The notes beneath the pieces are model-generated. The model was not told the origin of the DNA, did no database searches, and was given only the letters and a program-made list of their open reading frames with translations. Positions 15,330 through 61,455 of a stretch of DNA of 64,000 bases are shown piece by piece (the first letter of the stretch is position 1; every line of letters starts with the position of its first letter). Source of the stretch: Polytrichum commune (taxonomy: Eukaryota > Streptophyta > Polytrichopsida > Polytrichales > Polytrichaceae); the NCBI GenBank assembly GCA_950295325.1, contig OX485804.1:28646001-28710000 (forward strand), given 5' to 3'. The position numbers and the translations under genes are program-made.

Positions 15330-17500
15330 CTACCACACTAGCAAGCTCAAGAAGTTGCATTTCTTATCATATGTATACGTTGAAGCATTAATGAAGTTGT
15401 CATGCTCAAAATCCACTTTGCAAGAAATCTAGACATATAGTAAAGGTGTTTACAATACACACATTCTATTTTTTGGGGCCAAAGCCCCGAGCATCATTTT
15501 GGTGAAGTCCGGACACATACATTGATGGATATCACCCATTGTAGCATGATGGGAGTTGTCCTCCTTGGACACGTTGTTGATGATCACTCCAAATCATGGG
15601 TATAGAATGATAGTGAATCCAACAACACAGAATCCATTCACGATTTTAGTGATCTCCCACTTGTTTTTGTGATTTGATGTTGGTATCGCAGGAGTTTGAC
15701 GCACTATCTTTGAAAATCTAGAAGTTGCATGGGCGTCCATGTTTGGTGGCACACAAAGATGCAGTTGAATAATGGGGAGTGTCACAATTGTTGAAAACCT
15801 ACGACAAGGTGAAAGTGCCTATCTCTGCTGCAATTGGAATTTGGTGTCCTCAAACACTAACACTAACACCTCCTCCCTAGATAGATTGGTTCATATCTTA
15901 ACCAACCATATGTTGGTACTATAAGACAATCCAATACATGTTTGTTGTTGTTGCCACTCACACATATTTATTGTTGTTGTTTGATATCGTCAAAGCAAAA
16001 TCAAAACTCATACTCCACATTATTGGTGGAGCGGAACTCATTTTTCATACCATTGTACATTGGAGTAGAGTGCCATATTGTCAATGTTGACTTTGGCATT
16101 GCACAAGATCCATGCTATTGGCATGCAATTGGCCCACATTTATTGATAGAGCTGGATGGCAATCTTGTAATGTGCCACTAGGAAGTAGGGCATCTAATAC
16201 GGATGTGGTATGAGCCACACCATGCTCTACAACATTCAACGACCTCTATGCATGCCCTTTGGGTCCAAGTGTTGGACGAGGAATGGAGTAATTTACTTTA
16301 TTGGGTTGATATGAGTCGCAATTGACACCAAGTGGCAAGTTGAGTTTGGTGGACCCAAACAACTCTAAGCCCTCCAATGCACAATCTTTTGTATTGAGGT
16401 TTTTTGGGTTCTTCGTGGCATTTGCCAACATCTTAGGATCTCCACACATGGCATATTGTTTATAGTGTACTTACAAGCATCATGTGTCCACTCATTGTCT
16501 ATAATCGAAGTGCCAAAATCCCAACCATTCCAAAAGTCCCAGCAAACCTTCCTCTATGGCAACTCCCGAAGACAACCATCCTAAACAGTTGATGTGATAT
16601 TTAGTTTCAACATCCTCCATTGTGATGGCATCTTTGTATTTTTTTTTCATATTTGTTTGTGTTGAAAGGGTAACGATGGTTAGATGTACATTCAGATCAC
16701 CTTATCCAAGTTGGATGACCAATGGAAAAAAGAAATACACTCACAACCAACCAATGAAAGACTCATATCATCATATCATCATATCACCATTCCCGTATAT
16801 TTTTCAAATTGCACTCCAATTGGCTTGGGCATTGTCTTCCATGGATCCCTTGACATTCATTTTAGGCACACCATTATCCACCATCAATGCACTGATATTT
16901 TCCCAAAACAAGGTTTGCATTGAATCATCCTATGATTGCATGTCACAAAACACAATCGTAATCACCTCACAATATTTATTGGCATACACATGTCACACCA
17001 TAGTCACCAACTCTAATAGATTTATCACATGGTCAAACATGACCCAAAAGTTCTCTATGTCCCCCGCCCCCACCCACATGCATCCGCTTCACAAGGTTGA
17101 TGTCACAACATAGTAGGTCCACTGACGTTTTGAATACGAACATGTTATCTTTTGGCTGACCCAAACACCTGCTACAATGGACAAACTTAAGGCCAAAGTA
17201 ATCTTTTAGTGTCAAATGTTACAAATTCCATGATACTTGTTCCACTTCTCAAAAAACACTTGGAACCAAAGACAAAGTTTTGACAATTTGGTGAAGCCAG
17301 TGTGGTGAATTAATTTCTCCATGACAACTTCCAATGGGGCACCTTCAAGATGATGCCCTTCACCTTGCAATGGAGATTTTAAGACATAATCCACCAAATG
17401 TTTTTTGTTTGCAACCATCATGATTGCCAGGTTCTTGGTAGTAGGTGTCTACATCACCTACGTGGCAACACATTGGTATGTTTTATCCAACGATTCTTGA
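15330..17500 (-). pseudogene. MULE transposase remnant, internally deleted
   Basis: A decayed copy of the transposase found at 39,177-42,945. Recognisable pieces on the minus strand include GDPKMLANATKNPKNLNTKD followed by CALEGLELFGSTK (16,246-16,449) and MMVANKKHLVDYVLKSPL (17,212-17,421). They match GDPKMLADAMKSYPGAEDVH and VASKQFLADYLLKSP of the younger copy. The reading frame is broken many times. Homology jumps from the segment after GGATCTCCACAC (about 16,437) to the segment of TACAAGCATCATGTG (about 16,470), skipping about 0.5 kb of the younger gene, which indicates an internal deletion. Homology fades beyond about 17,500. It cannot make a working protein. Confidence 0.8.
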
Positions 17501-37084: not shown

Positions 37085-38261
37085 TTAGCAATGAGTCACA
37101 GGCGCAGCGCTCGGAGGATGGCGGAGCGGCGAGTAAGCAAGTGATTGGGAGCGAGAGCGGTGAAACCTCCGAGGCTCTGAGAGGCTGATGGAGGCTAGGG
37201 GAAGTAACATAGAGTTGAAGCAGCAGATCTGCTGCTCCTCGAAACTTCCCCTAGCCACCCACCTCCTCGGCAGCTGAAGAGGCACCCTACTCCAAACCCA
37301 TCCACCGCAAAGACTCATGCCATCAATATAAAGATCACCCACACACACATTGTCGCTACCGGGAAACACTGATTTACACCTGCCGAACACTCTCTTAAGG
37401 ACGCCGCGACCCTTTGACAGAAGCTGTTGAGCTACTTCGCCAAAATCCACCGAACGAAGGCCCTGCTACTCCGACCAAAGCCCGACGTTGCTGATCTAAC
37501 TCTCCGGGATCCGCCGAACGAAAGCTCCTGCTCCTTCACCAAAAGCCGTTGATCTACTTTGCCGAAGGCCCGAACAGTTGCCCCTGATGATCCGACCGAA
37601 GTTGCTGATCTAAAGTCGTTGATACTCCCTCGGCGCTGCTGATCTAACTCCCCGCAACCCGCCGAACGACTGCCCTGATACTTCACCAAGCCGCCGATCC
37701 ACTTCGCCGAAGTCCCGAAAAGTTGCCCTTGACACTCCGACCGAAGCTGCTGATCTAACCCCCCCCCCCTGAAAAACCGCTAAACAAATGCTTTGATACT
37801 TCAAACACAATAGCTGGTCTACTCCGCCGAAGCCCGAACGAATACCCTGATACTTCGATCGTAGCCGCCGATCTACTCCACCGAAGTCTGTTGAAGTCCG
37901 CCGAAAATTCCTTGTTATTCACAAACTGTTTGCTGTCTGTAGCGGTTATTCAAAGATTGCTCGTTGTCTGTAGCAACTATTCGAAGATTGTTTTCTGTCT
38001 GTACATTTTCCCGAAGATTGCTCGCTGTCTGAGCAGATTACTTCGCCCCTTGATCACACTACCTTCCTTAGGCCTAAAAGTGGGTGTAGATTGAAACTCT
38101 CTGATTCCTTGAAATCATACCCCTTAGCATATCTGGTGCACCCTTAGCATATCAAAGAGAGTGCACAACATTGGATTCACTGCTCATAGATCACACTGCC
38201 CTGATAGAGCTCAAGAGCGAGACACCCTGCTAATACCAAAAACTCAATAAGGCAAGGCTAC
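37085..38261. repeat. degenerate tandem-repeat region, possibly the 5' untranslated part of the LINE
   Basis: Repeating phrases such as GCTGCTGATCTAAC, CCGCCGAACGA and ACTTCGCCGAAG recur every 100-130 bp between about 37,450 and 37,880. They are followed by four units of about 35 bp (GAAGATTGCTCGCTGTCTG and variants) at 37,927-38,035. Removing the Mutator-like insertion at 38,271-50,535 joins this block to 50,545-51,196 and then to LINE ORF1. It may therefore be the LINE leader, where tandem monomers are common, but this is inference. Open frames inside it are repeat artefacts. Confidence 0.5.
37193..37256. other. strong hairpin with nested palindrome
   Basis: Outer arms GGCTAGGGGAAGT and ACTTCCCCTAGCC are perfect complements over 13 bp. 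They enclose the 18-bp perfect palindrome AGCAGCAGATCTGCTGCT. Such a structure could form a cruciform or an RNA hairpin. Function unknown. Confidence 0.6.
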
Positions 38262-38270
38262 TGGTAGAAG
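38262..38270. repeat. left 9-bp target site duplication of the Mutator-like element
   Basis: TGGTAGAAG, identical to 50,536-50,544. Nine bases is the standard duplication length for Mutator transposition. Confidence 0.93.
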
Positions 38271-38339
38271 GAGGGAAGCTATCTTATGAGCGATGAGCAG
38301 TGAGCGGTGAGCGGTGAGCAGTAACACATGAGCAATGAG
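38271..38339. repeat. left terminal inverted repeat of the MULE
   Basis: After GAGGGAAGCTATCTTATGAG it continues with tandem TGAGCGG/TGAGCA hexamer-like units. It pairs imperfectly with 50,479-50,535 over about 50 bp. The internal repetition may provide several transposase binding sites. Confidence 0.85.
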
Positions 38340-38509
38340 CAATAACATATGAGCAATGATTCCAAATTTAGTAAAGACACACGGGTTTAGGGTACACAAC
38401 CAAAATTTTGACAAATTAATTGCATATTTTCAATTGTAAATTGCCAATATTTTAAATGAAGCACAAGTGAAAGGGCCCTATTTCCATAGATCATTTAAAA
38501 CACTTTCAA

Positions 38510-38700
38510 TTCATTGCTGATTTTTATTATAATAATCCAAACCAATACATGTCATTTATTGACATCCTTATACATGTAGTTACAACCAACACTTGCACAA
38601 CTACTCACATTCCACAACACCATCAAGCTCAAGTAGGTGCATAACCTCATTATACGTACATGTAGGTGCCATAATTGTGAGCCACTCAAACTGCTCACGG
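38510..38700. repeat. partial duplication of the transposase 3' end
   Basis: This block (GCTGATTTTTATTATAATAA then ACACCATCAAGCTCAAGTAG) is a diverged copy of 39,092-39,270, which holds the last codons of the transposase and its 3' flank. It is too short to encode a domain. Confidence 0.7.
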
Positions 38701-38774
38701 GTTGAATTAAGGCCCAGAATCTACAAATGAAAGGAAATTAGATATTAGAAATAGTCAATATGTAGGTAACTACT

Positions 38775-38985
38775 AGGTTTTGAGACATCCGCCTGTGGAT
38801 GCGAGTTGTGTAAGAGACTGGTATTAGGTCTGTATCAACCCGGGTTCGAATCCGGTTGGTTACATTGACTGGTGCTATCCCAAATTGAGCTAGTGATAAA
38901 GCACGAATAATTTATAGGCGGATACCAAGAAGACGTTACTACGCGGATGTGCGTAGGATCTTCTTAATTATTTTTTATTTTTAGA
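38775..38985 (+). mobile_element. possible tRNA-derived SINE
   Basis: Contains a good polymerase III box B, GGTTCGAATCC (38,843-38,853), preceded by CAACCCG in the manner of plant tRNA-derived SINEs. A T/A-rich tail follows near 38,970. A plausible box A region lies around 38,800 but is not a strong match. No cloverleaf is formed, so it is not a tRNA gene. It separates the two copies of the transposase 3' end. Confidence 0.45.
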
Positions 38986-39176
38986 AACTTATTATTATTT
39001 ATCCATGTCAATCAATCAAACCGCTCACGGTTGGGTCGTAGTCTAAATAGAAATAAAGTTACTGAATCATTTGAAATACTTCCAGCCCATTATTGATTTT
39101 TATTATAAAAATCCAAACAAAAACATGTCATATTTTGACATTCAAATATATGGTACTTAATAGACCATTTGCAATA

Positions 39177-42100
39177 CTACTCACACTCTACAATACCAGC
39201 AAGTTCAAGTAGTCGCATGACCTCGTTATAGGTATATGTAGGTGCATGAATGAACTTGTCACTCTCGTAATCCACCTTGCACAAAAATCTAAACACATAA
39301 TAAAGATGTTTACAATACACCCATTTTCCTTTCTTTCCCAATGCATGAGAGGACATTTTCGTGAAATCCGGGCATGTGCAATGCGGGATGTCGCCAATTG
39401 TGACATGGTAGGTGATATCCTGCTTGGAGATAATGTTGATTATCACTCCAAAGCCCGGATATGGAATGGTAGTGACCCCAACCACATAGTAACCCTCCAT
39501 GAGCCCGGCGCTCTCCCATTTGTTTTTGTGATCCGCTAGCGGTGCTGTTGGATTATGACGCACTGTCTTCCCAAACCTGAATGTAGGGTGGGCGTCCGGG
39601 TTTGGTGGCATAGAAAAATGCGAGCGAGGGATGGGGAGAGTTGCGATTGTTGAAAGCCTACGACGAGGGGACAATGCCTCCCTCTGCTGTAGTTGAAATC
39701 CAACATCTTCAAGTGCCAAAACCTCCTCTCGCGATAGATTGGTACCTATCTTCACCGGCCATGTGTTGGGTACTATAGGCCAGTCCAACACATATTTCTT
39801 CTTATTGCCACTCACACAACGTTTGATGTCGTCAGGGTAAAACCAAAATTCATACTCCACATTGTTGGGAGAGCGAAATTCCTTCCTGAGCCCTTTGTAT
39901 GTTGGAGCAGGTGTGCCATGTTTCCCAGTCCCGATTTTGGCATTGCACAAAGTCCATGTGATGGCCTGCAGTGCCCAACATCGTTTGGCTGAGTTGGGTG
40001 GTAATCTTGCAATGTGCCACTTGGAAGCAAGACAATCTGTCTCTAACACGGATGTAGTATGAGCCACACCATGAATTGTAGAACTCAACGATTCCTCTAT
40101 GCGTTGACGAGTTGCTCGGGTGTTGGGACTAGGAATGGAATAGTTTACTTTGTCGGGTCGATGAGAGTCACAATCAGCACCCGGTGGTAGGTTGAGTTTG
40201 CGTTTGGTGGAACCAAAGAGCTCTGACCCTTCCAATGCACAATCTCTAGTGTGGACGTCTTCTGCCCCTGGATAAGATTTCATGGCATCGGCCAACATTT
40301 TTGGATCTCCACACCAGGCAGCCGCTTTGAGTTTCAAGGATGCCGAATCAAGACCTTTACCATTAGACCCCCCTTTCAACCATGTCCGGTAATTTGCAAT
40401 TTGCATGAAGGCACGGATCATGTCGTCCACTGTAGCTTCATATAAACAAGTCATCTTGTTGCCGGACTGTTGGAGCCATTTGTTGTGTACAGTCTCTGCA
40501 AGGTTACATGTTGGCATTTCCGTACGCTCTTCTATTGTCATATCCTATGAACAACACACAAATACAAGGATAAGACAAACATAAGATATATTATATATCT
40601 AGGTTTGGGTCGTTCAATCCAAAATGGCTGCTACATTTGGGTCGAACGACCCAAACTGTTTGTTGTTTGTTATGTACAGTCTCTGCAAGGTTGCATATTG
40701 GCATTCCCGCACGCTCTTTTATTGTCATATCCTATGAACAACACAGAAAGACAAAGATAAGAAAAACATAGGATATATTACATTGAATAATGAAGTTTGA
40801 TATATACTTACAAGTATCATATGGCCACCCCATTGTCTGTAACGAAAGTGCCAAAATCCCAACCACTCTGAAAGGCAAGGATGCCTTCTTCGGAGGCAGC
40901 TCCAGATGACAACCATCAAGAACGAATCACATGGTACTTGCTCTCAGCGTCGTCCATTGTTTTCGCGTCTTTGTAATCCTTGTATATTTGTTTGTGTTGA
41001 AATTGCAAGGATGGTTTGATATACTTTTGGGTCACCTTATCCAAGCTTGCGGACCAATGGAAAAGACATGTACGCTCACGTACAACCATGGGTAGACTTG
41101 GATCACCATTCCCGTAAATCGCCCTCACCGCATTCCAATTAGCTTGAGCACTATCAGCCATAAACCCTTTGAAGTTTACGTTTGGTACATCATTATCTGC
41201 CATGACAGCATTCAAATTTTCCCAAAAAAGAATTTGCGCTGCACCATCTTTAGATTGCATGTCACAACACGCAATAGTCAACACTTTACAGTATCGACTG
41301 TCGTACACATGGCAAGTCATGGTCGTCCAGTTCTTCAAACGTTTGACATGGTCAAACATAATCCATGAATTCTCCATATCCCCACCGACTTGCATCCTCT
41401 TCACAAGCTCCACACCACTACCTGGAAGGTCTACAGACATCTTGAAAACAAACACTTTGTCCTTTGACTGCCCTGGGAACCGACTACCATGGACGAATTT
41501 GAAAGCAGAGTGGTCTTTGAACGCCATAATACTATCCATAGTTCCCATTCCACTACGCAAAAAATGCTTTGATCCAGATACAAAGTTACGACAATTTGGA
41601 GAGGCAAGAGTGCTGAATTTGTCCATGACGACCTCTAGGGATGAACCAACCAAGTGATGGCCTTCGACATTTGCGGGAGATTTGAGAAGGTAATCGGCCA
41701 AAAATTGTTTGCTCGCCACCATAACTATGGCTGAATTTTTTGCTGTGGGTGTTTTCAATACTTCATTTGCAACGCATTGGTATGCCATGTCTAATGATTC
41801 ACGGCATGTGTCATTGGCCACAGGGTGATCATGTACACCAAGATGAATGCAAGCCCTGGACATTCCAACGGATGTGGAGTGGATGTATATGATTCGAGCA
41901 TTACATAAAGCAATGCACACAGGTGTGGAACGACATACCTTACACTCGACAGTGGACTTAGTAGGGGGAACAACACCCACAGCAAATGGGATAGGAGTTG
42001 AACCGGCCCATTCAATGTTGTTCCGGAGGCCCCCATTGCGATTCATGTAATCACAGTAGTCATTATGACATTGGAGATGACCAGCACAAGTAGAGCGCCG

Positions 42101-42945
42101 GAAGGACAGTCCAAAGTCATTTTAGATATTCGTGGTTTTGGTGGTGCACCAAGGGTGACCGTTGCACATCTTGTCTATGCCGTCTATTGAGCGACCATAC
42201 GTACTTGAAGCTTTGAGTGCCACAGGAGGCAAGAGAAATAAAACATCACCATTAAAAGAAGATGATAAGTACTTGACTTCACGAACATCTATACTGTCAA
42301 AATCAATGGATGCAAGATCGGACTTTGATTTTTTTCTTGACTTTGTCAGCTTCAAGGCATCAACCATAGTCAACCCTGTAGATGAAGGTGAAGGGTGTAG
42401 TGGAGGACGTTGAGAAGGTGAGATTGGGGGAACCAACTTTTTATACATAAGACCGCTAGGGGATTTGGCTACATGTATAGGAAGTTGGGAAGGAGTAGAA
42501 TGAACACTTCTAAATGGAAATGACGATGTGTTTGAAAGATCAACAGATGCATAAATATCATCTTCTGATCTGATAGCACAAATACACTATCATCAAGGGG
42601 TTCCACCTTAACAGGTGTGATAGAGGGAATTTGAACTGTGGATGTACCGGATTCATTTATCAAAATGATAGTTGAAGCTTGCATATGAGACTCAGAAAGT
42701 CCTATCACCCTAAATGAACCAGGTCCTAAGATCCACATAAAACCAACATCAGTTCTATTTTTTGGAACCAAAATCGTTTCATACACCTCTCCATCTGCAG
42801 AGTACATCTCATGCTCCAAATACATGGTTCCTATCTGGAGGTTGAATCTCAAACTAAGTAAATTCTCTGAAACACTCACATGACCATCATCTTGGAGTGG
42901 CAAGATGAAGGGAACAAAAGATCCATGAGCTCTAATGATAGCCAT
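39177..42945 (-). pseudogene. MULE transposase gene, broken by stops and frameshifts
   Basis: DDE transposase of the Mutator superfamily. Segments from the N-terminus: MAIIRAHGSFVPFILPLQDD (42,945), a Cys/His cluster with FRRSTCAGHLQCHNDYCDY (42,050-42,115), the MULE core with TMTCHVYDSRYCKVLTIACC and FMADSAQANWNAVRAIYGNG, and a C-terminal exon (39,177 to about 40,541) with the SWIM zinc finger CTCPDF...KWVYCKH. An intron ends just before MTIEERTEMPTCNLAETVHN. Breaks: a frame shift near 42,578, TAA at 42,122-42,124 inside the zinc cluster, TGA at 40,916-40,918, and a shift near 40,870 before GFWHFRYRQWGGHM. A 187-bp tandem duplication (near 40,485-40,780) also copies an exon edge. Transcribed divergently from the cargo gene. 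Alternative splicing could remove some breaks, but a full product from this copy looks unlikely. Confidence 0.85.
40485..40780. repeat. 187-bp tandem duplication inside the transposase gene
   Basis: GTACAGTCTCTGCAAGG at about 40,487 recurs at about 40,674, and both copies continue through TATTGTCATATCCTATGAAC. The second copy repeats the first codons of the C-terminal exon. A TTTGGGTCGAACGACCCAAA palindrome lies in the first unit. Confidence 0.75.
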
Positions 42946-43467
42946 AGAAAATCAAAAGAACATATGAACAACACATCACAAAAATATGGGGTGAATGTTG
43001 CTTTTGTATAGAGTTGTGTGACGAAATGAATGGAAATGAAAACGTGTGATACAATAATGGATGGAAATGAAAGCATGTGATACATAACATCTAATAATAC
43101 AGAAGTGGACATAATACAATAATAGTCAGAGACTATTTACGAGCAAGATATACACAAAACGGCGTCAAATACTAAAAGGATTGGTAGAAATTTAAAATAT
43201 ATATGTGTGGACTGACGCAGATGTAGAAAGAATTAAAATTGGTTGGAAAAATAAATTATTGATCATTATGAATAGAACAAAGTAGGTGTCAGAAAATTTT
43301 GGCGGATATAACAAAAATAAACGCATAATGACAAACGCGTTGAAATATCTCGTTCATTGAACGCCAATTACAACATGTGATCATAATATACGCCGGATTT
43401 TGTGAGATAGATACATTGGAAGAATAAATGATAGTACCTGATAGAAAACATATCATAGACACCAACG
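42946..43467. promoter_or_regulatory. divergent promoter region of the MULE
   Basis: About 520 bp lie between the transposase start (42,945, minus) and the first exon of the cargo gene (43,468, plus). The region is AT-rich with a TATATATG stretch near 43,198. A shared bidirectional promoter is inferred from the head-to-head layout only; transcription starts are not known. Confidence 0.5.
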
Positions 43468-43849
43468 ATGGTAGACGATGTAGAGAGAACACCTGTGAGG
43501 CCGAAGAGAAGATGTAGGAAAGCATTGTATTTCACTTCCGAGAAAAAGAGGTTCAGACTCAGTGTGGGAAAGAATGATGCAAAAAAGAAAGGGAAAAGAA
43601 ACTTGTTGAGTACGGTAGAAGAAACTGTGAAGACACTGGATTTTTATGCGATGGAGGATGATGAACGTGTAAAGAGCAAAGAAGATGTAGACGATCGTAT
43701 ATCAGAGTCCGAATTGAAGACGGGTTCAAAGAAGACGACAAACAAAATGGTAAGTCAGTTCAACGTTCACATAATTTGATAGTGCATAAGTTGTAAGTTA
43801 GGACGGAGAACCTTGTACGTTCACTCACATGTCATGTAGTAGCAATTTA

Positions 43850-44700
43850 TAGAGGTTATAAATTGAAGAGGAGAAACCCTATACGTTAATGCACATGGTA
43901 TATAACAGAAATTTAGGAAGGCTAGAAGTCAGGAGGATAACGCACAGGGTTTATAAGAGCAACTTGGGAGGCGAGAAGTTGGGAGGTAAAACCTTGTATG
44001 TTAACGCACAGGGTTCACAAGAGCAACTTAGGAAGCAAAAAGTTGGGAGGCGAAATCCTGTGCGTTAACGCACAAGGTTTATAAGAACAACTTAAGAGAC
44101 GAGAAGTTGGGAGGCGAAACCATGTGCGTTAACGCACAGGGTTTATAAAAGCAACTTAAGAGGCGAGAAGTTGGGAGGTGAAACCCTGTACGTTAACGCA
44201 TAGGATTTATAAGAGCAACTTAGGAGGCAAAAAGTTGGAAGGCGAAACCCTGTGCGTTAACGCACATGGTTTATAACAGCAATTTAGGAAGGCCAAAGTT
44301 GGGAGGAGAAACCCTGTGCGTTAACGCATAGGGTTTGTAAGAGCAACTTAATAAGGCCAAAAGTTGTGAGGACAAACCCTGTGCGTTAACGCACAAGGTT
44401 TGTAAGCGCAACTTAGGAAGGCCAAAGTTGGGAGGCGAAACCCTGTGTGTTAACGCACAGGGTTTGTAAGCGCAACTTAGGAAGCCCAAAGTTGGGAGGA
44501 GAAACCCTGTGCGTTAACACACAGGGTTTATAAGTGCAATTTAGGAAGGCCAAAGTTGGGAGGCGAAACCCTGTACGTTAACGCACAGGGTTTATAAGCA
44601 CAACTTAGGAAGCCCAAAGTTGGGAGGAGAAACCCTGTGCGTTAACGCACAGAGTTTGTAAGCGCAACTTAGGAAGGCCAAAGTTGGGAGGTAAAACGAC
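43850..44700. repeat. palindrome-bearing tandem array, about 13 units of about 64 bp
   Basis: Each unit has the order AACTTAGGAAGGCCAAAG, TTGGGAGG, CGAAACCCTGTGCGTTAACG, CACAGGGTTTATAAG. The core CTGTGCGTTAACGCACAG is a perfect palindrome when intact, and most units keep at least the GTTAAC centre. Variation is mostly single-base (TACGTTAACGCA, GTGTTAACGCA). More copies of the core occur outside the regular array near 45,128, 45,234, 45,305 and 46,371. The array is intronic in the cargo gene. Confidence 0.9.
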
Positions 44701-45210
44701 TAGGAGAGCCTAAAATTAAAACAAATATCTATTGTATGAATTTAAATCGATGTTCAGAACATAGGAGCAAAAAAACTATTCAACACGAGGTTAGAATGCA
44801 AGAAATGACAAATATGACTACTCATGTACTCATGCAATACGTTATAGGAGCTAGAAAATGATACAAAATAGCATAAATTTTTTTTTGCCCCGAAACCCAA
44901 AATTTACGAGGTGGCCCAAAACAAGAAAATAGATAGAAGAATGAGAAAAGAAAATCATTTCAAACCAAAACAAAATATGTGAAGAATTTGTAGCTACGGA
45001 GATTTAGATAATATAGCATATTTTTGTTTTTTTTTGGACCCCATTAGCATTTTTTCCAGATTTTACAAGTTTTGGCAAATTTACGAATTCCAGAATTACA
45101 AGTTTTTTTCAAATTCACGTCTCGGCCCTGTGCGTTAATGCATAGGGTCTATGTGCTGACGCACAGGCCTTATGCGCTAACGCACAGGGTGTATGCGGTA
45201 ACGCATAGTG

Positions 45211-45341
45211 GCTAGAAAGTTGCCAGCGCAGATCCTGTGCGTTAACGCACATGGTCTACTTGCCTAGCTAGAGGTTTCGCAAAGTTGGGCAAGTAGACCC
45301 TGTGTTTTAACGCACAGGGTCTGCGCTGGCAACTTTCTAGC
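45211..45341. repeat. long inverted repeat carrying two palindrome copies
   Basis: Arms of about 54 bp, 45,211-45,264 and 45,288-45,341. Both begin GCTAGAAAGTTGCCAGCGCA when read inward from their own end. Each arm contains one GTTAAC-centred palindrome copy (the right one altered to TTTTAA). A 23-bp spacer separates them. The structure could extrude as a large hairpin. Confidence 0.8.
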
Positions 45342-45556
45342 GGCTATGCGGGGCCACGAAGAGCCACGCTAAATATGGGTGCAGGGACAAGTAGTATAAA
45401 TTGCCACAACCCCAAAGCATTCAGTCTTTTTTCTCTCCTCCGTCGGACCTGAGCTCATCGCTGCAAGCTGTCTCATCTACAGGTGCAGTACAAGGTTTGT
45501 TTGCACTTTCGTGGTGACTGGGTAATTGCGCATAATCAGGCGTAAATTGCGGACAG

Positions 45557-45642
45557 TTTGGGTCGGCCGACCCAAACTGTGAGCATGGTTTGGGTCGTTC
45601 GACCCAAACTGTTTGCATGGGTTGGGTCGAACGACCCAAACC
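45557..45642. repeat. triple array of TTTGGGTCG palindromes
   Basis: Three successive palindromes occur: TTTGGGTCGGCCGACCCAAA (perfect), TTTGGGTCGTTCGACCCAAA, and a form centred on GGGTCGAACGACCC. Two related copies occur at about 40,610-40,660 in the transposase gene of the same element (one decayed, one TTTGGGTCGAACGACCCAAA). Outside the element none was noticed in the window. Confidence 0.85.
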
Positions 45643-46370
45643 TCGCGTCCAACTTTGTTAGACCTGTAGTTGGACGCACAGACCCTGTGTCGCAACCCTT
45701 GCTAGCCCCCCTTGACAATCTTGCCAATTTTCCTTTCTAGCAAAGGTTACGAGCGCTAACCCTTCGCCTCTAGGACTCTACACGGGGCCCCTACCCCACC
45801 GCCAACCAACCTCTTGTCTCTCTACCAAGAGTTGGGGCCAAGTGGACATTTTCCTTTAGCTGCTGGGCCTAGAACCCCCCCAGCAGCTTCAGACCATCAT
45901 AACCTCCTTGTATGATGTCTGATCATAACAACCAACCACTCCATCTTCATCTACGCTTCACGTAGATGCCGATGGACTCCTCGCTTGCCCCATTCGGGCA
46001 AGTCTTGAGGAAGTTATGCCTGTTTGAACCTTGGCAGTCCCGGGAATCACTCCAGGCACTGCTGTACCAGGGCGCTGTCCCGGGACAGCACCCCACTCAA
46101 ATGGCCATAACTCCTAGCTCACACCTCCGATTGAGGTGATCTTGAGCATTCTAGAATCACCACGCCATGAGCTACGCATAGCTTATGGCCTTACCCTTGT
46201 GCATCCTAGTCTCCGTGGGTGGGAGGCGTTCCCAACGCCCGGGCCCCTCACCCACACTAGGATCACTTGGGCCCTCTCACCAACGGCGCCACAAGTCCCG
46301 GGTGTCACTCCGGGGTCCCCCTTGTGCCCATGGTGTTTCGGGCACTCCTCATGGAGAGGTGCGCGACACC
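45643..46370. other. intronic GC-richer segment without recognised content
   Basis: Part of the large intron of the cargo gene. No frame shows a recognisable motif. Contains a GTCCCGGGAC palindrome near 46,076. One more palindrome core, CTGTGCGTTAACGCACAG, begins near 46,371 just beyond it. Confidence 0.4.
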
Positions 46371-49300
46371 CTGTGCGTTAACGCACAGGGTCTGGCCTTG
46401 TATTTTTGGGGTGAGCGGCCACCCTAATCGTACAATATTTAAAGGTGCAAATGGTTGTGTCTAGAATAATTTTTGTCATTCTTCCCTGTGTTCGTGGTAT
46501 TCTGTTGTTATTGTTGTTGCTATTGCTGTTGTTTTTGTAATGTTATTGGTAATGTGTTGCTATTTGTTTTGAAATATTTATGAAACTTATTTCATTTGTT
46601 TTAGGACCAATCAATGGATTTGGAAAGAATAACTCCTATTTCTACTGATGATGATTCCACAATGCATTCAATTCAAGATCATCCATCTCAACAAGTTCAT
46701 CATCATCAGGACATATCGTCAAATCTTCATAATAAGAAAAAGAAATAAAATAAATGAATCCCTCGATGATTTTGACTCGGATGAAGATAATGATGGTGAC
46801 AATAAAACTTATCAAGAGAAAATGTGGGAGCTTACGAACAAACGAAAGGTCAATTCCACTTCTACAATTTCTTCAATCCATGCTGGACCTAATGCATGCT
46901 TGCGTGTACCCTTATGTCGCATGGTTCCTATGCCGATTGTGCGTCCTGCTTTGAAGGGTGACATTACTAAATTGGAGGCTGATTTTTTCAATGGTTATCG
47001 TGATGGTGACCGTGTGTTTTATATATCGGCCACCGATTCTAAGGGAAACTTTCAATTCGTGGATGATGAGGTTCGCGCATCTTGGAGCCCAAATTGGGCT
47101 CAAACCAATGCTCTGTTTGAATCTCAATTGGATACAGATTTGTCATTGACGTCATACAAGAACAAGATGTTTTTTATATGGGATGGAAATCACAGATTTC
47201 TTGCTTGGAAAAATTATATTAACCGCGTATATACCGAAGATTATGAACGTCATGTGTTTGTGGATTCTATCATTTTAGCACCAGAGCCTGACGACATTCC
47301 AAGTTTGTTGACTGCTATGCATGACATCAACAAGTAATGTTCTTACCTATTTTTTTACACTTATTTCTAGTTTATATTTTGTTTTCCAAATTATATCATC
47401 ATGAATCTAATCAATTTAATGTTTCTTTTAGGTCAACCGAAAATTCTCACGTATCCACCAATTTGGTGCATACTTTATATCAGATGCAAAGTATTGGCAC
47501 CATGCCTTTGACTTTCTTCAGAAAGCAACTGGATCCAAAGAATTATAAACGATGTGAGGAGAAGTCCGTCGAAACTTGGTATTCTTTGACACGACCAATT
47601 TTTTTGGATTACATGTACAGTGTAAGTTTTTCTATCATTGCTAATATGTGCCTTATGTTTATTCACCTTCATTTTACATTACATCTATATGAACTTATAA
47701 ATATTGACTTTTGTTTGATTTTTCAGCAAGAACTTGCTGAGGCTAGCGATATTGCTCTCAACCAGTACAATGAAACTCATCCTCTTGAACGGACAATTGC
47801 CGAAATCAACCTTACCTCTGCTTTCCTTGAAGAAGTTAAGCACCATTGGGGTTCATTTTCGGTGCCTGAAATGCTACAAGAGAAACTTCATCGTGTTGCT
47901 GTCAGTAATGTGGATGCAGAAGTCAAAGTTGGATGGCTCAAGCTTTGGAATGGCAATAGATTTGACAAAGATGCATTGCATTTCCCGAAATCGCCCCTCT
48001 CTGATTCTGCACTTGATGATTGGTTATCAAAGTCTACATATTGGGCACAGTTGGAAAAAAAGGCTATCGAAGAGCTTCAAAGTATTCTTTCATCTCCTCT
48101 TCAGTTGCCTACAGATGTGCCTACTCTCTCCGAGTATATCCAAACCTGGAAGTTTGCGGCTTTCAATTCAATATTCTATCGTGAATTCCAAAGCGGAAAA
48201 GTTAAAAAACACAACGGTTGGGATGAGCAACCTAATATTGATCTTGCTATGAAACGTGTATTATACAGGTACAACCTAATCTTATTATTTTTTTTGATTT
48301 TTTTGATTACATTTGTCAAATTGTCATGGAATATTTGACTTACAATATTTTTGTGTGTAGGTATTTTCGATATGTTTTGATTCCACATAAATGCGTTATA
48401 GGGGAACCTCGTTTTTTCCCAAATTGGCGTGACACTGGTGCAGGAGATTCATGCATGTTCACTACTGAGATTTGTTTGGATTGGTCGCTCCCACACTATG
48501 AGGATTGTGGTTGGTATCTTGATTGTCCTAAGGATGCATGTCCGTCAAGTGAGAAGACAATCCGTCAGATAAATGACGCTAAAAATGTGGATCCTCGTGA
48601 TACTGCAATTTTGCAAGCACAAATTGTGCAGCTTAAACTTAGAGAGCCAGAACCAAAAGAGACAAAACGTCGTAAGAGGAAACATGTTCCTGAAACCAAA
48701 ATACAAGATCAATCGGAAATTTCACAACACGAAGAATTGCTTGTTATTTCCAATGATTTGGATAAGAATCCACTTGGAGGCGAAAGTTCAAAGTCTGGGT
48801 GCGATGTATTGGAATTCCATTACTCGAGCACCTATGACGCTATTCATCGTGCGTCAACGAATGTTTTGAGAAAAAAGTTATTCATACTGAAGAACTTTCT
48901 CACGCTCTCTTTTGCTCGATCTACTGCTGTCAAGAACAAGTCTGAAGGGGTTGAAGTAGGCCCTCTTGAGTGGATCCAATGGCGGACATTTCTTGAAAAC
49001 GTAAGTATTATTGTTTTGGTATTTTCTGTAATGTTCTTACTTTCATTTGGATTTTATTTTGTGTCTTATATTGTGATATGTTGTGGTATTTCAGTTCAAA
49101 GACAATCGCGAATTTCATGTCATGGGAAGTCCGACTCCATTTGCCGTTGACTTGGTTTTTCTGCAATTTCCCGACGGTCTTGACTTCAACCTCTCCAATA
49201 GACCTGCTGAAATTCCTCTTTGGAATAAATATGACAAGAACTGGATGGTTGCAACAATGTCTTTGTGCAAGTCCATCTTGTCTGATGATGACGTCCTCAT

Positions 49301-50351
49301 AGTATTTTCTGCTATCGATATGCAAACCAAGAAGGTTTTGAATTCAACCTTATACAACGGCAACATGAAAGTTCTTAGGACTTTTATTTGCTTCAATTCG
49401 TACATGGTGTTCAAGGATCCGGAGTCTCCAACCTACACCGTAAGTATAACATATCACAATTGTTTCTATTTAATTATTTTGGTGTTATTTGCATTGTATA
49501 TAGTTTTAACACAATTTATATTTTTTTGTAGACTCCGGCATTTATGGCTCATGTCTTGGTAAGGGATTTTACTACCACAAAATCCACGAGACAACCAAAC
49601 TCCACTTTTTTTGGCACTGGATTGAAAAGCAAAAACTTGCTTTTCAATTTTGTGGATGAAAAAAACATGCTTCTTCAAAAATCGGGAAGACCTTGGAGGG
49701 GGCCATATCAAAAATCGCCGCGTTTTTTTTCAAGATCTTATTGAATTGTTTACACCATCGAATGGACGCGTTGTTGATTTGACATGTTCCACTGGAACTT
49801 CTATCCTAGCAACACGCGCATGTGGCAGACATCTTCTTGCATTTGAGGGTGATAATGACATGTCTGAGCACATATTGAAACCGCTTTTGGAAAACGTTTT
49901 GAAAGAGGGGTCATCTAAGGAGAATATACAAGATCTCACAAAAGAAGATGATAACCTCTCAAATGAGGAGATGCTTGAATTTGAGTGTGAGTAAGTTTTA
50001 ATACAATAAATTTTTATTCAATTCATTCGTTTCATTCAATTCATTGGTTCATTTTTATTTCTTCACATTATTTACATGTTTCATCGATTTGATTTCAGGA
50101 ATACGATTGGAAAGAGGACATGTCTCCCGTTTTGGGCACATAGACAATTCCTACGAAGTCCAAGCCGTAGCCCGCGTCTCCCATCATATGCCGAGAATGT
50201 TGCAATTGCAATGTTGAATCTCAAAGATTCGGATCCAAATGAAGAATCTTGCTATAGTTCCAAAATCAATTCGCATTGCAAAGGTGCTCGAATATATATA
50301 GATGACGAGGCAAAAGATAGTTTCATGTCTAGTGCTACTACTGATGAATAA

Positions 50352-50535
50352 ATTTTTGGACTTCATGTTGTTTATCCTTCTCAACCCTCTTATTATTAAA
50401 CCCTAAAATCATCATTTTTAAGGCCACAATTCCACGGTTATAGGATATTGGTGGCCCTATTACCAAAATTTTCATCTTCCTCACTGCTCATAAGTTACCG
50501 CTCATTGCTCACCGCTCATAAGATAGCACTCCCCC
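50352..50535. repeat. 3' flank of the cargo gene and right terminal inverted repeat of the MULE
   Basis: The cargo stop TAA is at 50,349-50,351. The TIR occupies about 50,479-50,535; its reverse complement reads GGGGGAGTGCTATCTTATGA and continues with GCGGTGAGCAATGAGCGG. It matches the left TIR with a 1-bp gap near the outer end. Confidence 0.85.
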
Positions 50536-50544
50536 TGGTAGAAG
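50536..50544. repeat. right 9-bp target site duplication of the Mutator-like element
   Basis: TGGTAGAAG, identical to 38,262-38,270. Confidence 0.93.
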
Positions 50545-53055: not shown

Positions 53056-54184
53056 TTTTGACATTCGTAACGTCAAGAAAAAATTAAATAAAAATAAATT
53101 TTTACAAACTCAACAAAAACAAATTCAAATACCGTATAGTATTATTAAATACTATAAGTAAAAAACGAATTTTTACATACGTAACATCAAAGAAACAAAT
53201 TACAAAAGTATATTTATATACAAAATACAAAAACAAATAATTTGTAATATTATTAAATACTATATGTATAAAACTAAAATTTACATTAAAAAATCAAATA
53301 AATATAAAATATATAAAATATTTGTATATAAAACATAATAAAAAACAATACAAACACCATATAATATTCTTTGATACTATATGGACAAAACTAGTTTTGA
53401 CATACGCAATATCAAAAACATATAATATAAAAATATATTCATATACAAAATACAACAAACACCTATACAAATACCGTATAGTACTATCAAACGATATATG
53501 TAAAATACATATAACACCCATTCTAAATCCAAACAAAACTAGCATAGTACTTACCAATACCATTCTAAGAATACAAACAAATAAAATCAAAACAAAGACG
53601 CCCATTAAACACATAATAAACAACACACAAACAAATAAACAACTGGTAACACACAATAAAAAAGACGCTTATACAAAGAAAAATGCTACTTACAACTAAT
53701 ACAAAAATAATAATACTCACAAAACACCTTATAAAACACCAAACAAAACACCAAGTGGCCTCGGCCTACCGGCCTCGCCACAAAACAAAACAAACAATAC
53801 ACCCACACAAATCTCACTACAACCGTTCTATACACATTAAATATAAATTTCATTCTAAATATAAACTTCAATCGAAACATCGCCTTCAACATAAAACGGC
53901 CTTGGCCTCCCGGCCTAGCCACAGAAATAAAAACAAATACCAAATCGCAAATAGCTGGATACCTACCACAATAATAGACCACACACCTAAAGACAACACA
54001 AATACACACTTCTCAACTAAAAAAAAATCAAACAAAATACATGCCTTACCTAATTTTTTTACTACAACCAGATTCATACTTACCAAATATCTAAAAATAA
54101 ACAAGAACAAACAAAAAACAATACAACTTCATTAACAAACTAACATTATAAAAATGTGGAGATATAGAACCCAATCCCGGACCA
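53056..54184 (+). repeat. A-rich inter-ORF region of the LINE with diverged tandem repeats
   Basis: Phrases such as TTTTTACATACGTAACATCA, TTTTGACATACGCAATATCA and AATACCGTATAGTA recur at roughly 100-200 bp intervals between 53,050 and 53,520. Two GC-rich islands, GGCCTCGGCCTACCGGCCTC (53,757) and GGCCTTGGCCTCCCGGCCTA (53,902), stand out in an A-rich strand. Open frames on both strands (53,294-54,135) reflect composition. Confidence 0.5.
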
Positions 54185-55285
54185 ATGCCTGATATTTTAC
54201 ACATACATCCCGCTTCACACAAAAAAAGAGCCAAAGAATATTTTATTCCAAATACGATAAAACTGCAACCCAAATATCAACACATAGCTACCACATTTGC
54301 ACCCATACTAAAACATAATCATCCACTACATCACCAAACAACCACTATGTATACATACTTACATCAATACATCCAAACACAAAGCCATTCCCCATCAACT
54401 CACATACGATACGCCTTAATCATCACTATAAGCCCCTCAATAAACACCTGTAACAATATACTAGCCCAACCACACATCCACCACTTTAACAATATATGGA
54501 CCAACACGTTTATCATTAGGCTAGCCAACCTTAACAACCCCCCCGAACGGCATATTCTAACACAACACCCATACGTACATTTTTAGAAAATAACCAAGAC
54601 ATAATACTTCCCAAAAACACTATACATACTGAACTATATGAATTCATCCTCAGCCAAGAAATCCCACCTACTCCAGTCGCACTCCAAAGAAAATTCCCCT
54701 ATCTTCTAGAAAAATTAATAACCGAATCCCTCCGTTGCCTAGAAAACATAAACGAATACTCACACCCGCCCCCACTCCCAAACACCCCTACACCAACCCC
54801 AAGAAACATCATAAATACCAATTACGAAACAAACATGATAACTTGGAATGCCTCATCGCTTAACACAGCCTTACCAAATCTACAAAGCCTAATAAATTAC
54901 TCCTTCAGAAACACTGCAATTATTAATATCCAAGAAACCAAATTGACAGCAACTAAATCAATAACATACATACAAAACTTATTCCTTGAATACAAACTTA
55001 TTTTTAACAACACGCACACCCTCACAAGATGCATACAACAAAGAATGCCTTACACCCCCGGAAGAGGTGGCCCACTCACACTCATTCATAACAAATACGC
55101 ATTTCCCGGAAACGTCACCAAGATCCCCTCACCAGCAAACATCTCCCCATATTTATAAATAATAAAAATAAACAATCATCCACTCTTACCATGGTAATCA
55201 TACACATGTATATGCCCACACACTTAGAAGATATCCACCTCATTCCGTACCTCAAAACTGCAATCACTAATCAAATCACTGCGCC
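54185..55285 (+). pseudogene. LINE ORF2, N-terminal part with start of APE endonuclease
   Basis: Begins MPDILHIHPASHKKRAKEYF. A 1-nt loss in the T-run at about 54,582 shifts it to the frame that continues to ITWNASSLNTALPNLQSLIN and IINIQETKLT, the WN and ETK motifs of apurinic-type (APE) endonucleases that nick target DNA. GRGGPLTLIHNKYA follows. A TAA at 55,156-55,158 and another shift near 55,190 precede MVIIHMYMPTHLEDIHLIPY. It is then cut at 55,286 by the 5.0-kb TIR element. The rest of the domain resumes at 60,294. Confidence 0.75.
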
Positions 55286-60293: not shown

Positions 60294-61455
60294 GTGTGTA
60301 CATCCAAACTACACGCACATCCTATGTGGTGATTTTAACCGAGACATTGCATTCACTGGTAGGCAAAACTATAACAACAATACACCACCACAAGAAAAAG
60401 ATATACGATGGGAAAACTTCACTACAACCCTCAATTTAGAATATATTCCTACGGACACTATCCTCTCTAGACAAGGAGGCTATAATTACACATCAACCAG
60501 CCTTATAGACGGCTTCTATATCAACTCACCAGACAATAGCAGATTCACCTCCATAACAAACACAAACATGAATCTAAACTCAGACCACTACCCAGTCATT
60601 CTACACATACCCCTAAACACACTTATAGTTAGACCCCTACTCCCCACGAATATCATACCAACCATAAAACTAAACCCGATCCCTCCGGAAAACTTAGAAA
60701 AATTTAATATAGAATTTTTTGAAACATACTCCACGCAACTAAACAAACTAACCAAACTACTAGAGGACCACAACCACCTCAACCCTGATCAATGGCAAGA
60801 AACCTGTATAACACTAGACAATATTGTAGAAAAAATCTCTAAAACCATTGAGAAACCTCCAAAGCAGCCCCAATACCATCCCTCACAAATAAAACTGCAC
60901 AGCAAGGTAGCTTCCTGCCACGAAAGCTATCTAAAGAATGGAAAAAACACCTTGAAACATATCACCTTATTAGAAAAAACTATATACATTGTACAAAACA
61001 ACCCACACTGGCAAAATCACCCTATCCTAAATGAAATTCGAAACCACAAAAATGTGCAAATCCCACACCCACCCACAACAGCCACCCCTCCAAATGAATG
61101 GATAGACATCATAGCTGCCATCGCAAAAACCGTTAATAAAGACGCCAGAAAAATCACCACAAAATATACCAAAGACTGTATTCTAAAAGCTGTATCAAAA
61201 TACCGACAAATGTATGAAAAAAACCCCAAAAAAATAAATAGGAAAATCTTCAAACATTCCGAAACTTCCCCCCTAGACTCAATCACGGATAGACAAAACA
61301 ATATCCTAACTAGCCCTGAAGATATTACAAAAGAAATACACATTCAACAATTCATCAGTAACCGCCCAACAGTACCCACATGTTATTATTATAATACTCA
61401 CCCACCATACTGCGCATGTGGTGTTAGGCAATACCCATGGCACGACCTAGAATAA
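60294..61455 (+). pseudogene. LINE ORF2, end of APE endonuclease and linker, truncated before the reverse transcriptase
   Basis: Continues the endonuclease after the insertion with HILCGDFNRDIAF (GDFN) and MNLNSDHYPVILHIPL (SDHYPV), both conserved catalytic motifs of APE-type nucleases. The frame then runs through a Lys-rich linker (NPKKINRKIFKHSETS, ILTSPEDITKEIHIQQ) to a Cys-rich CYYYNTHPPYCACGVRQYPW, and stops at TAG/TAA after HDLE. In related elements the reverse transcriptase would be expected directly after this point. Here the next recognisable sequence, in another frame, is a different zinc cluster, which implies an internal deletion. Confidence 0.75.

Follow-up and report, generated by a model that had tools for sequence, protein, structure and literature searches.

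A 64,000-nucleotide stretch of the Polytrichum commune genome (C2:28646001-28710000, hereafter the window) contains a Mutator-like DNA transposon, here called the family A element, in which a transposase-like gene is accompanied by a second gene at 43468-50351 on the plus strand. The sequence-only reading had described the latter as a cargo gene joining a ParB/sulfiredoxin-like segment to an amino-methyltransferase-like motif. The label of cargo is misleading: rather than having been captured, the gene is a conserved component of the element, its second gene, and it recurs in diverged subfamilies (A to F) across the 407.8 Mb of genome searched. Most families carry arrays of palindromes specific to them next to, or inside, this gene. 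In the account that we favour, and to which we give an even chance, it is the conserved second gene of a two-gene Mutator-like superfamily and its product recognises its own element and counters silencing, while being catalytically degenerate.

The family A element has clear terminal inverted repeats, as expected of a Mutator-like element (MULE), and is flanked by a 10-bp target-site duplication (coordinates in Table 1). Target duplications of MULEs are usually about 8-11 bp, a range into which this one falls. The duplication is perfect over 10 bp in three of the six family-A copies and matches at 9 of 10 positions in a fourth, other copies carrying ACTTTTCCAC and CAACAATGCT; in the remaining two copies, one element end was not located. 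By these sequence features, the element is classed as Mutator-like. The transposase-like gene is oriented divergently to the second gene, and its ratio of non-synonymous to synonymous polymorphism (pN/pS) is 0.31-0.32 within family A. In Pfam, a SWIM zinc finger was matched at E 0.081 in A and at E 0.0016 in B (18.4 bits for a cut-off of 19.6), and the pieces scanned from A, B, C and F gave no match to a MULE DDE transposase domain. A decayed second transposase lies on the minus strand at 15342-17499 and is 39-67% identical to the one at 39177-42951. Queries with the second-gene proteins had no further match in the window.

The second gene was modelled as eight exons separated by seven GT-AG introns, with an exon sum of 3,440 nt; this is a predicted model, drawn by eye and by comparison of copies. 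It retains the gene start and stop given by the sequence-only reading, and the motifs cited there were located in exon 2 (FFIWDGNHRFLAW, 47170-47208), exon 6 (VDLVFLQFP, 49146-49172) and exon 7 (VVDLTCSTGTSILATRACGR, 49770-49829). A first look with exon 6 returned 717 candidates in the genome and, among the 150 scored, more than 100 were at least 91% identical. Homologues of exons 2-7 were found in the same order in other subfamilies, at 26-48% identity. Together, these matches place the gene beyond chance. Exon 1 had no homologue outside family A when searched for in the other subfamilies. Two subfamily B queries returned 1,171 and 1,480 genome candidates (150 scored in each). Representatives of the six subfamilies align over both halves of the protein; their ParB-like halves are 39-46% identical to that of A, and their methyltransferase halves 29-36%.

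Divergent transposase pieces adjoin the second gene in B, C, D (two loci) and F, so that the layout is common to five diverged subfamilies when A is included; the stretches read at F and at the second D locus took in no more than the first transposase piece, and the E stretch reached none. In one subfamily C locus (L024), a transposase close to that of A (85-93% identical over most stretches, 68% in one) stands beside a distant second gene, the A and C second-gene proteins being 40% identical in the ParB half and 29% in the methyltransferase half. Modules thus seem to have been swapped between elements, as judged from this pairing. Two subfamily D copies have runs of 5,000 N in the array region (L025, 1002-6001; L026, 984-5983), which are either assembly gaps or withheld stretches. 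A 1,905-aa frame over the ParB-like exon at C3:58502281, considered as a transposase fusion, was rejected as an artefact of such a 5,000-N run.

The methyltransferase assignment of the sequence-only reading was borne out. Pfam N6_N4_Mtase was found in all six subfamily members under a lax limit (E up to 10), with a best E of 1.4e-7; the family A match (E 0.012) is below the curated cut-off. Profile searches of the PDB matched a DpnA-type enzyme at 8.6e-7 over the C-terminal part and CcrM at 1e-4 over profile positions 14-233, with the query motif IV aligned over VDLIFADPPYNL. A subfamily F query matched phage adenine methyltransferases, with 90-99% of the query covered in the best rows and a lowest E of 5e-5, and a profile comparison of the A-F methyltransferases with bacterial ones gave P 4.7e-7. 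These matches identify the C-terminal half as a beta-class N6/N4 DNA methyltransferase fold. The S-adenosylmethionine (SAM) motif I is C-terminal, after motif IV, and its D, TG and E.D residues are invariant in 6/6 members. The earlier suggestion could have fallen if family members never kept SAM-binding residues; all six keep them.

The catalytic motif of active N6/N4 DNA methyltransferases is [DNS]PP[YFW]. None of the six members has it: at the positions aligned over the DPPY of CcrM they read [DEQ][YFL]P[DE]G. Subfamily A has QFPD, B and D have EYPD, C has DYPD, E and F have DLPE, and a G comes next in each. The loss of PP(Y/F/W), noticed earlier in the window copy, is therefore general. 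Exon 6, which includes this region, is under constraint although DPPY is gone: its pN/pS is 0.28 over the six family-A copies, compared with 0.47 for exon 1, 0.56 for exon 2 and 0.69 for exon 3 (pairwise sums over 5-6 related copies, hence not independent). One could see in this an active DNA methyltransferase with a variant motif IV, marking the element with N6-methyladenine or N4-methylcytosine, for example at its palindromes. Such an enzyme would account for the invariant motif I and following acidic residues, for the constraint on exon 6 and for the Asp kept at the first motif position in C, E and F. We nevertheless consider it quite improbable, given that this first position varies between D, E and Q and that the PP-aromatic part is lost in every member.

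The ParB-like half is recognised at the level of a motif. The ParB fold has a Box II motif, GxxR (PMC12704722), which is present as DGNHR in all six subfamily members. With the subfamily F protein, PHROG_1033, a ParB-like partition protein, was the second of three matches, at a non-significant E of 0.18. Neither ParB_N (PF02195) nor any other curated ParB model matched this half. Of the ParB-methyltransferase pairing, the second partner holds; the first is a reasonable, unproved assignment that neither profile nor fold searches confirmed. Katanin matches of the ParB-half profile (E 0.022) were judged to be chance. Relatives carrying both halves were sought in viral contigs and in bacterial and archaeal genomes by a test that needs short conserved peptides; the 16, 23, 171 and 118 pattern stretches obtained included none related.

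A genome search with PF02195 gave four matches, all on three small contigs, C10 (L040), C12 (L041) and C23 (L042). C10 and C12 encode fusions of the ParB - N6_N4 methyltransferase type with DPPY; the C10 protein has what we take to be a Hint/intein-like insert between motif IV and motif I. These three contigs are probably bacterial or phage-like, from contaminants or symbionts.

The sequence-only reading had suggested that the protein may bind DNA instead of modifying it and had thought of targeting, without mention of palindromes. Palindrome arrays now favour both ideas, binding itself being a presumption. The P1 palindrome (type CCCTGTGCGTTAACGCACAGGG) occurs 17 times in the window, always in intron 1, and not once in each of 20 shuffles of the element. 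Other family-A copies hold 11-13 sites in four cases and a single one in a broken copy (c5, contig C4) that lacks the left part of the element; site counts refer to the fetched copies. An exact search of the genome for the P1 16-mer gave 694 sites, against 0 for the reversed control. Among the first 50 of these sites, all on contig C1, 43 lie at most 8 kb from a family-A gene match, and the distance is 17-18 kb for the remaining 7.

Palindromes differ between subfamilies: CCCTGTGCGTTAACGCACAGGG in A, GGTGGCCGTTAACGGCCACC in C, GTGTCTCGGNNCCGAGACAC in E and F, and a similar one in B. There are 997 genome occurrences of GTGTCTCGGNNCCGAGACAC and 70 of GGTGGCCGTTAACGGCCACC, with controls at 0; in the first 50 of the 70 C sites, measured against C- and D-type gene matches jointly, 46 lie at most 8 kb from one. 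In B, C, E and F the palindromes stand mostly between the transposase and the ParB-like exon, with a few farther downstream in E and F; a location in intron 1 can be stated for A only, where exon 1 was located. A CG-N4-CG about the dyad is common to the arrays of these four subfamilies and of A. In all five, palindromic arms exceed those of shuffles, for example in A (27 vs 3-11; three of the six family-A copies), F (29 vs 1-10) and E (25 vs 2-4), and more weakly in B (18 vs 3-8 and 9 vs 1-5). Perfect palindromes of at least 14 bp number 4-11 per copy in A and 10 in C for an expectation of 0.6-1.2.

These arrays might instead be binding sites of the transposase, acting as internal enhancers or assembly sites, with the second protein as a transposition helper, a role that MURB may have in MuDR. 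The C transposase, 85-93% identical to that of A over most aligned stretches, goes with a palindrome core, CGTTAACG, that A and C share despite their diverged second-gene proteins; this core could therefore follow the transposase. Two P2 sites also lie on the transposase side of the window element. The A and C palindromes have different outer arms despite the close transposases, whereas E and F, with close second-gene proteins, share theirs, and the P1 arrays lie in intron 1 of the second gene rather than at the element ends. We regard a transposase-site origin as unlikely. Since C combines an A-like transposase with different arms, the comparison suggests that sites follow the second gene and not the transposase, with the shared core as a counterpoint.

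A second palindrome, P2 (TTTGGGTCGNNCGACCCAAA), occurs in 9,731 exact genome copies (control, 0). Its cluster at C1:612500-629500 belongs to a high-copy family, H (L037-L039, C1:612500-632500; L043), and another P2 cluster that was inspected likewise falls in H, with 84-86% identity over two compared parts. Among the matches listed, 21 H copies, the query included, are 100% identical over 189 residues of the ParB-like part, so family H appears recent. From its copy number it would be a transposon; around the first H locus, no inverted repeat of 14 exact bases was found. The H protein carries WLIDGQHSVEAS (DGQH) and weak ParB signals. Its ParB-like part compared with four bacterial ParB_N domains gave P 0.0024 (4.7e-7 to 0.45 in the nine other comparisons), and its sole match, PHROG_1033, was not significant (E 0.15 and 0.32 in two cuts). 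Comparisons with A-F were not significant for the ParB-like part (P 0.076) or for the second half (P 0.14; P 0.17 against two bacterial methyltransferases), and homology of H to A-F is therefore not claimed.

In a logo of 66 P2 sites from two H loci, the arms carry 1.2-2.0 bits and the two central bases 0.3, and beyond one conserved base per side (1.3 and 1.5) the flanks carry 0.0-0.4 bits. Sites were chosen by arm similarity, which favours the arms but leaves the scatter of flanks and spacings unexplained. With conserved arms amid scattered flanks and spacings, P2 resembles a binding site that has been kept more than a repeat that has been copied; for the other palindromes the two are inseparable. 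This bears on whether the arrays might be no more than common tandem satellites, or non-coding DNA that forms hairpins, without a protein that binds them, the two findings being unrelated. Tandem repeats can expand by slippage, part of the flanking sequence is conserved in A, B, C, E and F, as tandem units would lead one to expect (five of the six family-A copies in this analysis), and D has arrays without clear palindromes. That palindromy recurs with different sequences in A, B, C, E, F and H, that H arms are kept amid unrelated flanks at many spacings, and that reversed-pattern controls gave 0, all make a mere satellite improbable in our view.

Taken together, these results suggest a mechanism in which a ParB-like, presumably dimeric protein would bind the palindromes of its own family, which are repeated between the two genes (in family A, within intron 1 of the second gene). 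The C-terminal methyltransferase fold, with SAM-binding residues kept and DPPY lost, would serve as a platform binding DNA, SAM or a partner rather than as an enzyme. Coating of the CpG-centred arrays would keep host CG methylation, and hence silencing, off the element, and both divergent genes could then stay expressed. A partition or tethering role is conceivable as well: the protein would load at the iterated sites, spread as a clamp and tether the element, whether integrated or excised, to chromosomes or replication forks. In favour of this are the GxxR box and the likeness of iterated palindromes to plasmid centromere arrays. Loading at parS followed by spreading is described for ParB clamps (PMC12704722). 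An integrated element would have no evident need of partition, and we hold this role to be very improbable.

Several observations weigh against recognition and anti-silencing by the second protein. The ParB half has no significant match in Pfam, NCBIfam, PHROGs or the PDB; matched by profile against four bacterial ParB_N domains, it reached P 0.23-0.26, with just the GxxR box aligned; a phage search with the subfamily D half gave no match; and its single-sequence fold was uninformative (mean predicted local distance difference test score 32.9). Within family A, GxxR is present in four of the six copies and the other two read DRNHR, the G being lost. The family may be dead, as all six copies read somewhat broken: stops or frame breaks occur in each of the five other copies, exon 7 being stop-free in two of these, one with a short shifted stretch. 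Exons 4, 5 and 7 have pN/pS of 0.88-1.22, and the motif I exon is therefore without purifying selection among these copies. Subfamily D shows no palindrome excess (6 vs 0-7 and 2 vs 1-4 in shuffles), with 1 and 0 CG-N4-CG sites in two gap-free upstream stretches and no clear array; this count covers L032 and L033 only, as the array region of L025 and L026 is N. One D stretch has four copies of an odd palindrome, GGGTGCC-N3-GGCACCC. Perfect palindromes of at least 14 bp are not in excess in B, E and F, because the centres there do not pair. The core shared by A and C also counts here.

The closest known logic is that of the Arabidopsis VANDAL elements. VANC21 binds tandem motifs in the VANC21 and VANB21 introns and upstream of VANA21 and causes loss of methylation, and motifs change between VANDAL families (PMC5735166, PMC10398659). 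As far as these accounts describe them, VANDALs are likewise Mutator-like, with extra gene(s) beside the transposase and short family-specific motifs in non-coding tandem arrays, including introns of the extra gene. They differ in that our second protein is methyltransferase-like with a possible ParB-like half, VANC being compared by description only, that the sites here are long palindromes, and that the terminal inverted repeats here are clear when those of VANDALs are degenerate. Most likely, the mechanism follows the logic of VANC (a second gene, arrays in or next to it, and sites specific to the family) with different, phage-like parts.

Fusions of ParB with N6_N4 methyltransferases are known in phages and prophages (PMC12704722, PMC5512222). 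As in the two such fusions of C10 and C12, a ParB-like part with a GxxR-type box precedes a beta-class methyltransferase with C-terminal motif I; C10 and C12 keep DPPY, whereas here motif IV is degenerate, profiles do not detect the ParB half, and the gene has introns and is carried by a nuclear DNA transposon. DNA methyltransferase-bearing LINE and DIRS elements and Dam-like DIRS enzymes also place a methyltransferase gene on a transposon; as described (PMC5890265), these are retrotransposons with C5 or Dam-type enzymes, in contrast to a DNA transposon with a beta-class fold that lacks the catalytic motif and stands beside family-specific palindromes. Fungal DNA transposons with a TET/JBP dioxygenase likewise carry a gene that could act on host DNA methylation, by a different protein class and mechanism (PMC12730594, in the part available). 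A 2025 survey deals mostly with the ParB fold of bacteria, archaea and phages, mentions its fusions to methyltransferases in phages and gives chiefly sulfiredoxin for eukaryotes; the main text, as available, holds no word starting with plant or transpos (PMC12704722). No plant transposon with a ParB-methyltransferase gene was described among the matches listed from the open-access literature.

It is an open question how transposons avoid being silenced while sparing the host, and VANC is the one sequence-specific solution in the literature consulted. This genome seems to hold a second, unrelated one in several families, and its readable sites make co-evolution of protein and site directly testable. 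We tentatively go further, with less confidence than in the favoured account: a phage-type ParB with a dead methyltransferase may have been adopted by nuclear DNA transposons, with parS-like CpG-centred arrays as a private code against CG methylation, in two very distant versions within one genome (CG-N4-CG in A-F, CG-N2-CG in H) and in convergence with VANC. If true, ParB-type DNA recognition would extend into eukaryotic transposons. The roughly 9,700 exact sites of a single palindrome, P2, would lend themselves to simple genome-wide tests of binding or methylation.

Table 1. Features of the family A element and its second gene (positions in the window)
Feature	Position	Strand	Basis or remark
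Mutator-like DNA transposon, family A copy, 12,264 bp	38271..50534		same ends in other copies, self-comparison
Left target-site duplication CTGGTAGAAG	38261..38270		identical to 50535-50544
Right target-site duplication CTGGTAGAAG	50535..50544		perfect 10-bp duplication
Left terminal inverted repeat GAGGGAAGCTATCTTATGAGC...	38271..38342	+	inner limit approximate
Right terminal inverted repeat, minus-strand reading GGGGAGTGCTATCTTATGAGC...	50477..50534	-	inner limit approximate
Transposase-like gene, open reading frames 39177-40544, 40916-42121, 42122-42951	39177..42951	-	weak SWIM match near C-terminal end
Exon 1 (basic N-terminus)	43468..43749	+	sequence
Intron 1, holds 17 P1 palindromes (at most 4 mismatches)	43750..46604	+	site count
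Tandem array, unit of about 64 bp, 12 P1 palindromes	43793..44670		site count
Five more dispersed P1 palindromes, last (46369-46390) perfect	45126..46390		site count
Three P2 palindromes TTTGGGTCGNNCGACCCAAA	45557..45640		two more, transposase side, at 40604 and 40636
Exon 2, ParB-like part with DGNHR (Box II-like GxxR)	46605..47333	+	frame break upstream of ParB-like part in window copy
Exon 3, invariant SHV..N.VH	47432..47621	+	subfamily alignment
Exon 4	47727..48268	+	84 bp (in frame) missing relative to 5/5 other copies
Exon 5, conserved start, charged linker	48361..49000	+	homologues
Exon 6, methyltransferase motif IV region VDLVFLQFPDG and motif V-like stretch	49095..49439	+	profile alignment
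Exon 7, methyltransferase C-terminal part, SAM motif I DLTCSTG and E.D	49532..49990	+	frame break (homopolymer) in window copy
Exon 8 and stop codon	50099..50351	+	sequence

Elsewhere in the window, open frames on the plus strand at 54152-55158 and 60295-61455, with an NPGP-type peptide and an endonuclease-like part, are presumably of long interspersed nuclear element (LINE) type.

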